NCBI GenBank assembly: GCA_037200525.1
Contig: JBBCGG010000001.1
Coordinates: 2,522,501-2,586,500 of the forward strand
Reading direction: 5' to 3'
DNA length: 64,000 bases
From: Methylocella sp.
GTDB lineage: Bacteria > Pseudomonadota > Alphaproteobacteria > Rhizobiales > Beijerinckiaceae
Under the pieces are notes generated by a model. That model was not told the DNA's origin, searched no databases, and was given only the letters and a program-made list of their open reading frames with translations. Position numbers and translations under genes: made by a program. Below, in pieces: positions 32,865-64,000 of this stretch (its first letter is position 1; every line of letters begins with the position of its first letter).

Positions 32865-33464
32865 ATGAGACAGTTCAGTATATTCGCGGCTACTGCTCTT
32901 GCCGCAGCGCTAGCCTGCAGCGGCCCCGCTCTAGCGCGCGGAGGTGGCGTCGGCGGTCACGGGGGCGGAGGAGGGGGCGGTCACGGGGGCTTCGGCGGTG
33001 GTGGTTTCCATGGGGGCGGTTTCGCTGCGGGCGGTTTCCACGGCGGTGGCGTTGGCGGTATGCGCAACTTTGGGAATACCGGCTTCCAGGGCCGTAGCGT
33101 GGCTGGTTTCAATAACCGCGGCTTCAGCAATCGCTTCAATAGAAACGCGTTCTTCGGCGGGTTCGGAGGGGGCGGCTGGGACGGCTATGACGATTTTGCG
33201 GACTATCCGTATGAAGGCTACGGCGATCCGTCCTATGCCTACGATTATGGTTATCCTAACAGCGCTTATCCCGGCTATCAATATGGAAACTCTGTGACGC
33301 CGGCACAGCCCCTTCAGACGGGGCGTAGCGTCGCGACCGGAGACCTTGGCAATTATTGTACAACGCCGGTTAAGACCTGTGAGCTGTTCCACGCAGCCAA
33401 CATCGGCGCTGGGTGTTCTTGCAAAGTCAGCGGTGGCCGGGCCAACGGCTTGGTTGCGCCCTGA
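32865..33464 (+). CDS. Exported Gly/His-rich protein with GFQGRSV motif and Cys-rich C-terminal domain
   Basis: A 199-residue exported protein: signal peptide (FSIFAATALAAALACSGPALA), then a long Gly/His-rich stretch of GHGGG and FHGGG units, then the motif NTGFQGRSVAGFNN, a Tyr/Gly/Asp-rich middle (GYGDPSYAYDYGYPNS) and a C-terminal domain with CTTPVKTCELFHAANIGAGC and a final CSC. The four-cysteine C-terminal pattern is known from alphaproteobacterial secreted proteins of unknown function. Poly-Gly/His could bind metals; that is inference. It is the first of a cluster of three exported small proteins; the leader is shared with the third. Confidence 0.75.
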   Translation: MRQFSIFAATALAAALACSGPALARGGGVGGHGGGGGGGHGGFGGGGFHGGGFAAGGFHGGGVGGMRNFGNTGFQGRSVAGFNNRGFSNRFNRNAFFGGFGGGGWDGYDDFADYPYEGYGDPSYAYDYGYPNSAYPGYQYGNSVTPAQPLQTGRSVATGDLGNYCTTPVKTCELFHAANIGAGCSCKVSGGRANGLVAP

Positions 33465-33639
33465 ACTCAATTCTGAAGCTCGATATTGAAGCAGCCGTGA
33501 GAATCCCGGCTGCTTTGATTTCGGGTCTCTCGGCGCACGAGAGCTTTTTTTTGCGGCTCCTCGATGAACAGCCGCCCGACTCGAGTTGGTGCCAGTATCC
33601 GATGATTGCGGGGCGAATTCCACGGGAATCGAGCACTCA

Positions 33640-33897
33640 ATGAAGCTTCTAATCGTTTTGTCCGCGGCCATGATCGCGAGCACGTCGGCCTACGCCCAAT
33701 CAGACTCAATCGACGGCCCTCGGGACCAATCTTTAACCCCGAGCGCGAGGGGCTTGTCGAGGCAGGAAGACCTGACCTCCACCCAAGTGCGGGTTCCGCA
33801 TCCCGGCGCTTCCCGGGGCTCCCGTAAGAGCCATACTGGGCCTAGTAGCCATGAAGCAGATAGTGCTGCAGAAAAAAGCATCTGCAGCAACTGTTAG
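33640..33897 (+). CDS. Exported microprotein with C-terminal CxNC tail
   Basis: An 85-residue protein with signal peptide KLLIVLSAAMIASTSAYAQ and a polar, low-complexity mature part (Ser/Pro/Arg/Gln) ending AEKSICSNC, i.e. a CxNC at the very C-terminus. A similar protein at 62464-62697 ends AENGVCFNC and shares the AYAQ cleavage site and the start of the mature part (SDSIDGP here, TGSTDPGG there). The first 18 codons of the longer frame were dropped because the ATG used gives the signal peptide. Its repeat next to another Gly/His-rich gene suggests a common role, unknown. Confidence 0.6.
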   Translation: MKLLIVLSAAMIASTSAYAQSDSIDGPRDQSLTPSARGLSRQEDLTSTQVRVPHPGASRGSRKSHTGPSSHEADSAAEKSICSNC

Positions 33898-34040: not shown

Positions 34041-34307
34041 ATGAAAAGATTAGGCATATTGACGAGCGCGATGGCGCTCGGCGTTGCTGCTATTTGCAGC
34101 GGCCCTGCGTTGGCGCTCGATGGAGGCGGTCACGGCGGGACTGGAGGATTCCATGGCGGAGGTGGCCATGGGGATGGAATGCATGGCGGTGGGCGTGGCT
34201 TGGGGAACGGCGGTTTTCAGGGACGCAGCGTGGGCTTCAACCATGGGCGCCACAGGCACTTCTCCGGCGATGGGGTTTGCATACCCCCGATGGTCTGCAT
34301 CAGGTAA
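34041..34307 (+). CDS. Exported Gly/His-rich small protein with GFQGRSVGFN motif
   Basis: An 88-residue paralogue of the 32865 protein, without the Cys-rich domain. Signal peptide KRLGILTSAMALGVAAICSGPALAL is followed by GGHGGTGGFHGGGGHGDG and MHGGGRGLGNGGFQGRSVGFN, then a short end with two cysteines (GVCIPPMVCIR). The GFQGRSVGFN motif is shared with the copy at 61868-62167. Possible metal or surface binding is inference from the His-Gly composition. Confidence 0.7.
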   Translation: MKRLGILTSAMALGVAAICSGPALALDGGGHGGTGGFHGGGGHGDGMHGGGRGLGNGGFQGRSVGFNHGRHRHFSGDGVCIPPMVCIR

Positions 34308-36319: not shown

Positions 36320-36955
36320 GTGACTCAATTTGGCATTGTATTCGATAAGCTAGAACGCGATGCCTTGACCGAGCTGGTCAATATCGGGGTCAGTCGGGGA
36401 GCTTCGAGGCTGCGGAAGATCGTTGGCTCGGAAGTGCTTCTGTCTGTTCCCGCTATCGAACTGGTTGACCGCCGCACCGCAGCGACGATCCTTCAACAGC
36501 GAGAAACAGGTCAGTTTGTCGCTGTTCGCCAAAGTTTTGAAGGCGCCTTATGCGGGCATGCGTCTCTAATCTTCCCTGAATCAAATAGCCTCGAGCTGGT
36601 TCGAGCGGTCGTAGGAGGCAACGTTCCTGACAACGAAATTGCGGAAGTCGAAGATGATGCCCTTTCCGAAACCGGCAACATTGTACTCAATGCCTGCTTG
36701 GGAACAATCGCTAATATGCTGCGGCGGCCGTTGGCGATGGCTCTCCCCCAGATAACCCGATGCCCTGGTGGCATGTTGTTTGAACCTCCGGACGACAGCT
36801 CGCAGGAGGATGGAGTTCTTTTTCTCTACGTTAATTTTATGATCAGCGATCGAAATATCCGCGGCTATATCACGATGCTCATGGATCTACCGAGTTTAAA
36901 GACGCTAAAATCCTTGATCGACGTGGTCTGCCCCCTGAAAAGTGATCCTCCGTGA
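36320..36955 (+). CDS. CheC-like phosphatase, C-terminal tail replaced by IS sequence
   Basis: A 211-residue protein of the CheC/CheX/FliY family, which dephosphorylates CheY-like receivers. Both phosphatase half-sites are visible: E18 and N21 in ALTELVNIGVSRGASR, and E117, N120 and N124 in DALSETGNIVLNACLGTIAN. The glycine-rich helix end RGYITMLMDLPSL closes the domain. Residues from about 202 onward (the run VVCPLKSDPP) are encoded by the left end of the IS3-family element, so the natural C-terminus was lost or replaced; the core domain seems complete. No other chemotaxis gene is nearby. Confidence 0.75.
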   Translation: MTQFGIVFDKLERDALTELVNIGVSRGASRLRKIVGSEVLLSVPAIELVDRRTAATILQQRETGQFVAVRQSFEGALCGHASLIFPESNSLELVRAVVGGNVPDNEIAEVEDDALSETGNIVLNACLGTIANMLRRPLAMALPQITRCPGGMLFEPPDDSSQEDGVLFLYVNFMISDRNIRGYITMLMDLPSLKTLKSLIDVVCPLKSDPP

Positions 36956-36990
36956 AGTATGGGCTTATGAGCCTGATGGAGGACTGCGCA

Positions 36991-37269
36991 ATGCCGAGGA
37001 AAAGACAGAAGGCGGAAGAGATCGTCGCGAAGCTACGGCAAGTCGAAGTGCTTAGCGCGCAAGGGCGACCGGTCGCGGAGGCGATCCGCTCGATAGGGGT
37101 GACGGAAGTTACATACTATCGATGGCGGTCGGAATACGGCGGCCTGAAGGGCGATCAGGTGAAGCGGCTGAAGGAGCTGGAGGCGGAGAATACGCGGCTC
37201 CGTCGAGCGGTGTCCGATTTGACGCTTGAGAAGCTGATCCTGAAAGAGGCTGCCTCGGGAAACTTCTGA
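36991..37269 (+). CDS. IS3-family transposase OrfA
   Basis: A 92-residue helix-turn-helix protein: KRQKAEEIVAKLRQVEVLSA, GVTEVTYYRWRSEYGGLKGD and a leucine-zipper-like LKELEAENTRLRRAVSDLTL. It binds the element's ends. The phase relation to OrfB is -1, so a fused transposase is made by ribosomal frameshifting near the CTGAAAG sequence of its last codons, as is usual in this family. Confidence 0.9.
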   Translation: MPRKRQKAEEIVAKLRQVEVLSAQGRPVAEAIRSIGVTEVTYYRWRSEYGGLKGDQVKRLKELEAENTRLRRAVSDLTLEKLILKEAASGNF

Positions 37270-37292
37270 GCTCCGCGCGTCGTCGCGCCTGC

Positions 37293-38159
37293 GTGGAGCA
37301 TGTGATCGCCGAACATGGCGTTTCCGAGCGGTTCGCTTGCCGGGTTCTCGGTCAGCATCGCTCCACGCAGCGCAAGGTTCCGACCAAGCCCGATGACGAA
37401 GCGGCATTGATCGCCGACATCACGGCGCTCGCCATCCAGTACGGCCGCTATGGCTACCGCCGCATCACGGCGATGTTGTGGGAGCGAGGCTGGAAGGTCA
37501 ACGTCAAACGGGTCGAGCGGATCTGGCGACGCGAGGGGCTGAAAGTTCCGGCCAGACAACCCAAGCGCGGGCGTCTCTGGCTCAATGACGGCTCGTGCGT
37601 CCGGCTGCGCCCGCAATGCCCCAACCACGTCTGGTCCTATGACTTCGTCGAGGACCGCACTCATGATGGCAGGAAATATCGCATGCTGAATATCATCGAC
37701 GAATTTACCCGCGAATGCATCGCGATCAGGATTAACCGGAAGCTGAAGGCAGCGGACGTCATCGACGTTCTCTCGGACCTCTTCATCTTGCGAGGGGTTC
37801 CGATCCACATTCGTTCCGACAACGGCCCGGAGTTCATCGCCAAGGCGTTGCGTGACTGGATTGCCGCCGTCGGCGCGAAGACCGCCTACATCATGCCGGG
37901 CAGTCCCTGGGAGAACGGCTATTGCGAGAGCTTCAACTCGAAGCTGCGCGACGAGCTTTTGAATGGTGAAATCTTCTACACTCTCAAGGAGGCGAAGGTC
38001 GTCATTGAGCGATGGCGACGCCACTACAACACCGTGCGCCCGCACTCATCGCTGGGCTACAAGCCGCCAGCCCCGGAGACCCTGCAATGGCCGGCTTCGC
38101 AATCCGGACCAGCTTCGCCCGCCACGCCAGCAATAGCGCCAGGGCCGACAATGCACTAA
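37293..38159 (+). CDS. IS3-family transposase OrfB (DDE integrase core)
   Basis: A 288-residue integrase core. The DDE triad is visible in WSYDFVEDR, IRSDNGPEF and ENGYCESFNSKLRDE, with the typical YGYRRITAML and RPHSSLGYKPP end motifs. The frame is open upstream into the OrfA region, which fits expression by -1 frameshifting; the listed GTG start is nominal. Both frames look intact, so the element may be active. Confidence 0.92.
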   Translation: MEHVIAEHGVSERFACRVLGQHRSTQRKVPTKPDDEAALIADITALAIQYGRYGYRRITAMLWERGWKVNVKRVERIWRREGLKVPARQPKRGRLWLNDGSCVRLRPQCPNHVWSYDFVEDRTHDGRKYRMLNIIDEFTRECIAIRINRKLKAADVIDVLSDLFILRGVPIHIRSDNGPEFIAKALRDWIAAVGAKTAYIMPGSPWENGYCESFNSKLRDELLNGEIFYTLKEAKVVIERWRRHYNTVRPHSSLGYKPPAPETLQWPASQSGPASPATPAIAPGPTMH

Positions 38160-61867: not shown

Positions 61868-62167
61868 TTAGTAATAGTAATCACAGGCTCCGTAGGGATA
61901 GCTGTAAGGGTAGCCGTAGCCGGAGGCATAGCACGGAGCATAGTAGCCAAAGCCGCCCGCGCCGAAGAACACGCGTCTGTGGAAGCGTCCTGATCCGCGG
62001 TTGAAGCCCACGCTACGACCTTCAAATCCATGATTTCCGAGGTTGTGCGCTCCGCCGAAGCCGCCGCCGTGGAATCCGCCGCCGCCATGGCCGGTGCCGC
62101 CTCGCGCGAAAGCAGGGCTCAAAGTGAGAGTCGAGGCGAGCAGTGTTGCGACAAGCATCTTTTTCAT
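61868..62167 (-). CDS. Exported Gly/His-rich protein with GFEGRSVGFN motif
   Basis: A 99-residue exported protein and the third paralogue in the window. Signal peptide KKMLVATLLASTLTLSPAFA is followed by GTGHGGGGFHGGGFGGAH, then NLGNHGFEGRSVGFNRGSGR, then a Tyr/Gly-rich end (YYAPCYASGYGYPYS) with two cysteines and a final CDYYY. It aligns with the proteins at 32865 and 34041 in the signal, the GHGGG block and the NxGFxGRSV motif. The terminator behind it suggests that it is a single-gene unit. Possible metal or polysaccharide binding is inference only. Confidence 0.72.
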   Translation of the reverse strand: MKKMLVATLLASTLTLSPAFARGGTGHGGGGFHGGGFGGAHNLGNHGFEGRSVGFNRGSGRFHRRVFFGAGGFGYYAPCYASGYGYPYSYPYGACDYYY

Positions 62168-62463
62168 AGCAAGCGTCCTTTCAATAGGATGGCGATTTTC
62201 CGGAGATCGAACCGCCCCCGAGACACTTGCAAGCTACCCAAGCCCGAACGGCCCGAGTGTGATTTTCACACATCTCGGACCACTGTGGCCGACTTCGATC
62301 TCTTGATGTCTTCTGTCCGACGCGAAGCAAGTCGGGCGCGTTGTCGCTGGGCGTCGTCGGGGATCACGTTGATGTTATAATTGTAGCGCTTCTTTCGCTT
62401 GCCGAAATCGGGCTGTAACCCACGCCGTTCACCTTTCCGCCGTCCAAAACGGAGGAGAAGGCA

Positions 62464-62697
62464 ATGGTCAGAACCAGCCTGCTGGCCGCCTTTGTGGCGG
62501 CCATTATTGCGAGCGCGCCGGCGTATGCTCAAACAGGCTCAACAGATCCTGGGGGCCGCCCGGGCGATTCATCCAGCGAGGGTTACTTCACTCCGACAGA
62601 GCCAACGGTCTCGCAGCCCTCTGATACGAGGCCTTTTGACCGCGCGATCCTCAATGAAGACGATGGGGCTGAAAATGGCGTCTGCTTCAACTGTTAG
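62464..62697 (+). CDS. Exported microprotein with C-terminal CxNC tail
   Basis: A 77-residue exported protein: signal VRTSLLAAFVAAIIASAPAYAQ, a polar mature part rich in Ser/Thr/Pro/Asp (TGSTDPGGRPGDSSSEGYF) and the end DDGAENGVCFNC. It matches the protein at 33640-33897 in signal type, AYAQ site, start of the mature part and CxNC tail. A strong GGAGGAGAAGG site precedes the ATG. It is divergent from the Gly/His-rich gene 61868-62167, so one of each kind lies in each of the two loci. Confidence 0.65.
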   Translation: MVRTSLLAAFVAAIIASAPAYAQTGSTDPGGRPGDSSSEGYFTPTEPTVSQPSDTRPFDRAILNEDDGAENGVCFNC

Positions 62698-62842: not shown

Positions 62843-62887
62843 TGGCAGGAGAGGAGGGACTCGAACCCCCAACCCCCGGTTTTGGAG
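62843..62887 (-). other. Attachment site: 3' fragment of tRNA-Trp
   Basis: On the minus strand this reads CTCCAAAACC (the CCA anticodon loop), a T arm with GTTCGAGTC and an acceptor half TCTCCTG then CCA, that is the 3' half of a tRNA-Trp. The 5' half is missing. Such a fragment is what site-specific integration into a tRNA 3' end leaves behind, and an integrase gene starts 170 bases away. Confidence 0.85.
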
Positions 62888-63058
62888 TACGGCGGCGATA
62901 GTTTCCTGGCCGTTTCCGGCCTTATCCACAGCTTTAGAACCCCTTGATTCTACTCGTGTTGTGATCTCTGTTGTTTTCCTGTCTTTTCTGGCATTAATCT
63001 TATTCTGCTTACCGAGTGCTTACCGCGCTTACCGGGAAGCAAGGCAGAGGAGCCGAAG

Positions 63059-64000
63059 ATGCCAAGGGCACGGATCAGCAAAAGATCGGTTGACGCTCTC
63101 GCTTGCCCTCCCGGAAAAGACCGTGATTTCTTATGGGATGATGCGCTCGCCGGCTTCGGTGTGGCAGCCTTCCCTTCCGGCAAAAAGGTCTATGTCACGC
63201 AATACAGGCAGAACGGCCGGTCCCGGCGCGCGACCATCGGCGAGCACGGGCGTCTAACGCCCGATGAGGCTCGCTCCGAAGCGAAGAAACTGCTCGGTGC
63301 GATCGAGAGCGGCGCTGATCCGATCGCGCAGCGGCGAGCGACGAGAACTATTCCCCTCTTCCGAGAAGTCGCCGACCAGTTCATGCGCACGCATGTCGGC
63401 GCCAAGCGCAAGGCGCGGACGCTCGACAGTTATGAGACGCTGCTTCGGCTGCACATCTTGCCCTCGATCGGTTCCTTGAGAGTAACCGATGTTCGCCGCT
63501 CCAACGTGTCGAAGATCCATGCTGACCTTGCTGACCATCCAGGCGCGGCAAACAGGTCCCTCTCCGTCATCTCCGCTATCTGGAATTGGGCCGCAATCCA
63601 GCATGAGGACCTCGCCTTACCGGCAAACCCGGCCAAAGGCATCAAACGCAACCCCGAAGAGGGACGTGAGAGATATCTCACGACCGATGAGCTGGCCCGG
63701 CTGGGCGATGTGCTGGCAGAGGCCGAAACGAGCGGCCTTGCCTACCGCGTGGATGAGAGCAGGCCGGCGGCAAAACACGCCCCAAAGCCAGAGAATCGGC
63801 GCCGGAGAATTGACCCCTTCGCGATCGGCGCGATCCGCCTCTTGATCCTGACTGGAGCTCGCCTTCGCGAAATTCTAACCGCGAAATGGGACTATATCGA
63901 TTTTGAGCGCGGGCTCTTGAATCTCCCGACTTCGAAGACCGGCAAGAAGAGCCTCTTCTTGTCAGCCGCGGCTCTCGAGGTTCTCGCGGCATTACCCCGC
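63059..64000 (+). CDS. Tyrosine recombinase / phage integrase, cut by window edge
   Basis: A tyrosine integrase of the long type with a DUF4102 N-terminal domain (ISKRSVDALACPPGKDRDFL, WDDALAGFGVAAFPSGKK), the core-binding helix region (FREVADQFMRTHVGAKRK) and the start of the catalytic domain with the first Arg in ILTGARLREIL. The box-II residues and the Tyr lie beyond the window. It starts at ATG with AGAGGAGCCGAAG upstream. It is the integrase of an element that used tRNA-Trp, whose fragment lies just to the left, and whose cargo lies to the right. Confidence 0.88.
   Translation, partial: MPRARISKRSVDALACPPGKDRDFLWDDALAGFGVAAFPSGKKVYVTQYRQNGRSRRATIGEHGRLTPDEARSEAKKLLGAIESGADPIAQRRATRTIPLFREVADQFMRTHVGAKRKARTLDSYETLLRLHILPSIGSLRVTDVRRSNVSKIHADLADHPGAANRSLSVISAIWNWAAIQHEDLALPANPAKGIKRNPEEGRERYLTTDELARLGDVLAEAETSGLAYRVDESRPAAKHAPKPENRRRRIDPFAIGAIRLLILTGARLREILTAKWDYIDFERGLLNLPTSKTGKKSLFLSAAALEVLAALPR

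Follow-up and report, generated by a model that had tools for sequence, protein, structure and literature searches.

The open reading frame at the end of the analysed window (the whole stretch of 64,000 nucleotides of Methylocella sp. DNA) encodes one of eight dispersed copies, within a single genome, of a small exported protein ending in a C-terminal CxxC motif. These CxxC-tail microproteins are a new family of a familiar broad kind, the small exported thiol proteins, found so far only in Beijerinckiaceae and apparently restricted to this lineage. The group is known for methane- and methanol-using bacteria, in which periplasmic metal handling is central. The family has no Pfam or NCBIfam model, although 33 of the 199 sampled Beijerinckiaceae genomes carry a member. 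Its eightfold expansion in one species and its synteny with mtnA lend themselves readily to genetic testing.

Eight copies in one genome

The genome of the window (Methylocella/Methylocapsa group) is a single contig of 5,244,354 bases. BLAST with the 77-residue protein returned seven further sites (best E 5e-7), the copy at 33640 reaching only E 0.5, and a profile of the eight sequences was then used to place the copies at 0.42, 1.79, 1.91, 2.556, 2.585, 3.23, 4.16, and 4.37 Mb. The profile values for the copies (E 4.7e-37 to 1.1e-26; 1.1e-26 and 6.5e-32 for the two in the window) are circular, since the profile was built from them and both window copies are rows of it. The next matches (E 0.4 and 2) cover only the N-terminal positions 1-26 and 3-37. 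Since BLAST and the profile find seven other copies, and the congeners give strong independent matches, the family is not a chance resemblance.

The two window ORFs, with tails of the form A-E-x-x-[IV]-C-x-N-C and a Ser/Asp/Gly/Pro-rich run after AYAQ, are present as the preliminary description had reported them (Table 1). The putative signal peptide of the 33640 ORF, read from the sequence, likewise ends in AYA before Q; the ATG at 33640 is internal to a longer TTG frame (33586-33897). The signal peptides point to export of both proteins via Sec. The DNA of c2585k resembles that of c419k between 62401 and 62535 (67% by blastn), i.e. from -63 to +72, and that of c1906k from about -32, closer to the start codon. 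The further upstream likeness, including GTTATNNNTGTANCGCT at 62374, was observed by eye. This similarity of upstream and start regions suggests that the three copies arose by duplication together with the promoter region.

Table 1. Coordinates of the microprotein genes, their parts, and neighbouring genes (window positions unless a locus is given)
Feature	Position	Strand	Remarks
CxxC-tail exported microprotein, copy c2585k	62464..62697	+	77 aa; ends AENGVCFNC
Second CxxC-tail exported microprotein, copy c2556k	33640..33897	+	85 aa; ends AEKSICSNC
Putative Sec-type signal peptide of the 62464 ORF	62464..62529	+	residues 1-22; putative cleavage between APAYA and Q; read from sequence
C-terminal V-C-F-N-C (CxxC) motif of the 62464 ORF	62680..62694	+	
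Upstream and signal-peptide DNA of c2585k, similar in c419k and c1906k	62374..62535	+	
Gly/His-rich exported protein adjoining the 62464 ORF	61868..62167	-	not a conserved partner
Gly/His-rich exported protein upstream of the 33640 ORF	32865..33464	+	not a conserved partner
Second, shorter Gly/His-rich exported protein, downstream of the 33640 ORF	34041..34307	+	
TonB-dependent receptor and PepSY_TM genes near c1906k and c4369k	L050:2844-5195, L050:1509-2750, L045:9453-11783		

Signal peptide and tail are kept in all eight diverged copies, and the only invariant positions of their alignment are one alanine of the signal peptide and, in the tail, the C, N, and C. The pattern search proposed in the preliminary description was carried out on the genome as a DNA pattern of tail plus stop codon: it gave eight matches (three in the reversed control), of which five are family copies and three are implausible as exported proteins. 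The remaining three copies have extra residues after the second cysteine and therefore cannot match this pattern. Purifying selection is observed in three of four orthologue pairs (dN/dS of 0.24, 0.32, and 0.17); the fourth gives 0.98 with only 8 differences. The protein tree, of low resolution (0 of 20 inner branches starred), tends to place the eight copies together and to separate them from ten orthologues of other genomes that are linked to mtnA (80/87).

Mobile-element traces were seen close to some copies. Beside c2585k the region 62845-64000 holds, on the reverse strand, a stretch that by eye resembles a tRNA 3' end, and a tyrosine integrase-like ORF runs from 63059 past the end of the window (426 aa in locus L047); the region is probably the edge of an integrated element. 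ARAGORN found no whole tRNA in locus L047. IS3-like transposase frames, also recognised by eye, lie about 3 kb or less from two microprotein copies (window 36952-38159 and L048:5195-6085), with the same antisense frame standing open at both sites.

Tail, architecture, and distribution

For the description of the tail, 59 distinct members were collected by a regular expression requiring C..C at the end; 58 were counted by script, and L013, which ends in GICKNC, was added by eye. The first cysteine is preceded by I in 54 and by V in 4 of the 58, and the third position of the C-x-x-C is N in 30, G in 26, A in 1, and R in 1. The chain stops at the second cysteine in 36 members and continues for 1-5 residues in the other 22. 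Exactly two cysteines occur in the last 60 residues of all 58, a figure that is partly circular because the expression demanded the pair. The tail is thus better described as [IV]-C-x-[N/G]-C, and the CxNC end of the preliminary description represents the asparagine variant of a C-terminal CxxC: the conserved terminal cysteine pair stands, while asparagine is only one of its forms and the pair is not always terminal. One counted copy (L136) has an internal stop and was included by its tail alone. Left out were a signal peptide without the rest (L054), a tail-less fragment and a contig end (L125 and L130), spurious frames (L133-L135), weak congener matches (L024-L030, L035-L037), matches from outside the bacterial family (L074-L076, L113-L117, L120, L121), and second entries for loci in the set. 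Three distant members from one genus (g424; L105, L106, L108) end in T/S-S-V-C-K-G-C and have a different middle, PTPTEQHYEHKA or PTPLDRAQEHRA.

The mature part comprises ~55-70 residues, its only two cysteines being those of the tail, typically with a core N/Y-[IL]-T-x-T-G-x-T-V-P-x-P-G ... T-x-L-D-R-x-I; in both window copies the TxTGxTVPxPG core is degenerate, and the signal peptide and tail are present. Residues from a disorder-prone set make up 67-82% of the mature part in the eight copies. The AF2 model of a relative (L066) has low overall confidence (pLDDT 60.5, pTM 0.27) and contains a helix at 68-86, ending just before G87-C88, with pLDDT 83 (71-80). In the model of the more diverged window copy only a weak, short helix (60-66) appears (pLDDT 55.7, pTM 0.21); the remainder is modelled as coil of low confidence. 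The mature protein is predicted to be mostly disordered, with a helix running into the first cysteine in a typical member, and the preference for G or N in the tail would fit a helix cap before the second cysteine.

That no family with this tail had been described, as first stated, agrees with the searches: eight members (the two window copies and six relatives) stay below the cut-off of every Pfam and NCBIfam model, a profile search of the PDB gave no relative, and a literature search gave no publication on such a family and, in the library searched, no occurrence of the tail strings SICSNC, SICKGC, GICTGC, and GICIGC. The portion available of a paper on lanthanum in M. silvestris (PMC9291206) names no such protein. 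An AMO family search of the genome had no match, the controls also being without one.

The homologues that the preliminary description had asked for exist. A strong match is present in 12 of 14 congeners, with 1-3 copies each (independent best E 1.6e-27 to 2.2e-14; G008 has three, one with an internal stop). In the family-level sample 36 of 199 genomes match at E<=0.01, the genome of the window included; removal of three spurious rows (G825, G872, G886) leaves the 33 given above, in 10 of 43 genera. Members occur in Methylocella silvestris, M. tundrae, Methylocapsa aurea, M. palsarum, M. acidiphila, two Beijerinckia (including Beijerinckia mobilis), and MAGs, several loci of named species being nearly identical to loci of the sampled congeners, which places the window in the Methylocella/Methylocapsa group. 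The family offers a motif that is short and testable, along with members from named species. Beyond the bacterial family, 385 class-level and 397 order-level genomes gave nothing convincing: the partial matches looked like frames with no relation to the family or like a signal peptide alone. No more than 13-18 candidates per genome were scored in these searches, which overlooked some in-family members that the family-level search had recovered, so rare members elsewhere may exist. A plasmid tblastn with two queries gave no match.

Genes adjoining the microproteins

The recurrent neighbour is mtnA. Among the 59 distinct members, 17 distinct loci showed the mtnA motif, and at every one of them mtnA follows the microprotein gene in the same orientation; at many of the other loci only 1.5 kb to either side was read. 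The gap is 44-218 nt at the 14 of these 17 loci that have a recognised mtnA start, and the linkage is kept in other genera of the bacterial family. In the genome of the window mtnA accompanies the copy at 1.793 Mb; the product of this neighbour matches PF01008, and the name mtnA is a reading of that match. The copy directly upstream of mtnA is probably the ancestral one. A gene divergent from the pair (L044:8512-9456 and equivalents) has a C-terminal region WVVRDVYDG...GWIVVTSRGLVD; at L044:8512-9456 no Pfam match above cut-off was obtained.

A Pfam scan of 30 hand-chosen neighbour proteins of the eight copies gave a mixed, non-recurring set (regulators, sugar, efflux, transport). Two TonB-dependent receptor genes lie 1.3 kb from c1906k and 2.7 kb from c4369k, with a PepSY_TM gene beside the latter; this is a faint hint of a metal-uptake context, and since such receptors were not counted genome-wide, their proximity to two of the eight copies may be due to chance.

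The Gly/His-rich exported proteins of the window share a GFxGRSVGFN-like core outside their low-complexity repeats. Nine matches in the genome merge into 8 genes. Two of the eight microprotein copies have such a gene within 500 nt, and a third has one at 4.1 kb (three within 5 kb). Random placement equalled the observed proximity in 1 of 20000 trials at 500 nt, 6 of 20000 at 1 kb, and 2 of 20000 at 5 kb, a test that is post hoc because the preliminary description had already chosen these loci. Eleven congeners carry both gene types (G001, G002, G003, G005-G011, G013), and linkage was found in none: in G001, G009, G010, and G011 both types lie on one contig, more than 60 kb apart, and in the other seven they lie on different contigs, where an assembly gap might in principle have split neighbouring genes.

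These neighbourhoods bear on two explanations of the family. The pairing with Gly/His-rich genes, first read as a hint of a two-part secreted system, draws on the two close pairs and on how rarely random placement reproduces them; against it, six of the eight copies have no such gene within 1 kb, the arrangements at the two window loci differ (divergent at one, tandem at the other), and the pair was not seen linked in the congeners. With two of eight copies here and none of 11 congeners linked, the system is unsupported; we rejected it as a general arrangement and regard it as very improbable. The link with mtnA could instead mean that the microprotein is an accessory of methionine salvage, working with mtnA, and that the other copies are stray duplicates. 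Its conserved position and orientation upstream of mtnA, retained across genera, speak for this, yet MtnA is cytosolic and the microprotein is predicted to be exported, seven of the eight copies are not linked to mtnA, and a search of 10 loci with Rfam found neither a riboswitch nor any other match; a role in salvage is improbable.

The cysteine pair and comparison with known systems

No feature of the protein is more strongly constrained than the cysteine pair, which is hence its likely working site. The leading, though tentative, reading takes the exported pair as a putative ligand of two thiols for a soft metal ion, for instance Cu(I). After export via Sec, the pair in the tail would bind the ion, or otherwise act as a small redox disulfide; expansion to eight copies would have given versions differing in regulation or location, and the Gly/His-rich neighbours would be separate genes. 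As no histidine is conserved, a second chain or ligands from elsewhere would have to complete a metal site, and the short, low-confidence helix (60-66) predicted for the window copy counts against this reading. The fuller picture, somewhat more doubtful, is of a minimal periplasmic soft-metal/thiol buffer: a mostly disordered protein whose only active site would be a helix-capped C-terminal thiol pair, ancestral at mtnA (sulfur salvage) and amplified to eight diversified copies in one species of the Methylocella group.

Of the functions first listed for the tail, disulfide formation, metal binding, and modification are all candidates, and heme binding of the c type is unlikely. A disulfide, redox-active or structural, formed by periplasmic oxidation and serving envelope thiol balance rather than metal, would account for exactly two cysteines at CxxC spacing in every counted tail, and oxidation is the normal state of exported CxxC pairs. 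No thioredoxin family match was found with Pfam, however, no stable fold is predicted by AF2, and the structural use of a disulfide in a floppy tail is not obvious, which leaves this reading rather unlikely. A thioredoxin-like oxidoreductase in particular is not supported, there being no Pfam match and the low-confidence AF2 models consisting of a signal helix, coil, and a C-terminal helix only. The tail could also be a substrate for modification, the protein being a RiPP precursor, bufferin-like or otherwise, with modified cysteines. A Sec signal peptide with a conserved cysteine motif resembles MNIO-modified precursors, among which the accessible part of a published account names a CxxC precursor family lacking a signal peptide (PMC12452194), and the genome has one MNIO gene. 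This sole PF05114 match (2798632-2799423) is ~213 kb from the nearest microprotein copy, in a bufferin-like cluster of its own with two small exported precursors containing cysteine (by eye), which argues against the microproteins being bufferins; visual inspection of the ORFs listed for the eight loci and the Pfam scan of the 30 neighbours revealed no modification enzyme. A modified precursor is improbable, and a bufferin/MNIO precursor was rejected on its neighbourhood, which has no adjacent MNIO or partner gene. The MNIO cluster itself (L123; G000:C1:2798632-2799423 and flanks) comprises the PF05114 gene with its probable partner, one DoxX-like protein, and the two precursors in tandem, all but the MNIO being named by eye.

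The microproteins share features with several known systems. Bufferins (BufA, with PF05114 enzymes) are also small, with a Sec signal peptide and conserved cysteines, and probably act outside the cytoplasm; the microproteins differ in having one CxxC only, no adjacent MNIO, and, for eight members, no Pfam or NCBIfam match to bufferin precursor families at E<=1. The Gly/His-rich proteins of the same genus are likewise small, exported, and close to two of the eight copies, but differ in sequence and show no linkage in congeners. With c-type cytochromes, whose heme motif is CxxCH, the family has an exported CxxC in common; no histidine follows the second cysteine in any of the 59 tails, and c-type heme was rejected for this reason. 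Metallochaperones and zinc knuckles, as CxxC metal/thiol proteins, share the C-x-[N/G]-C pair, whereas in the microproteins it stands at most five residues from the C-terminus, after a helix of a mostly disordered chain, and is not accompanied by a second cysteine pair.
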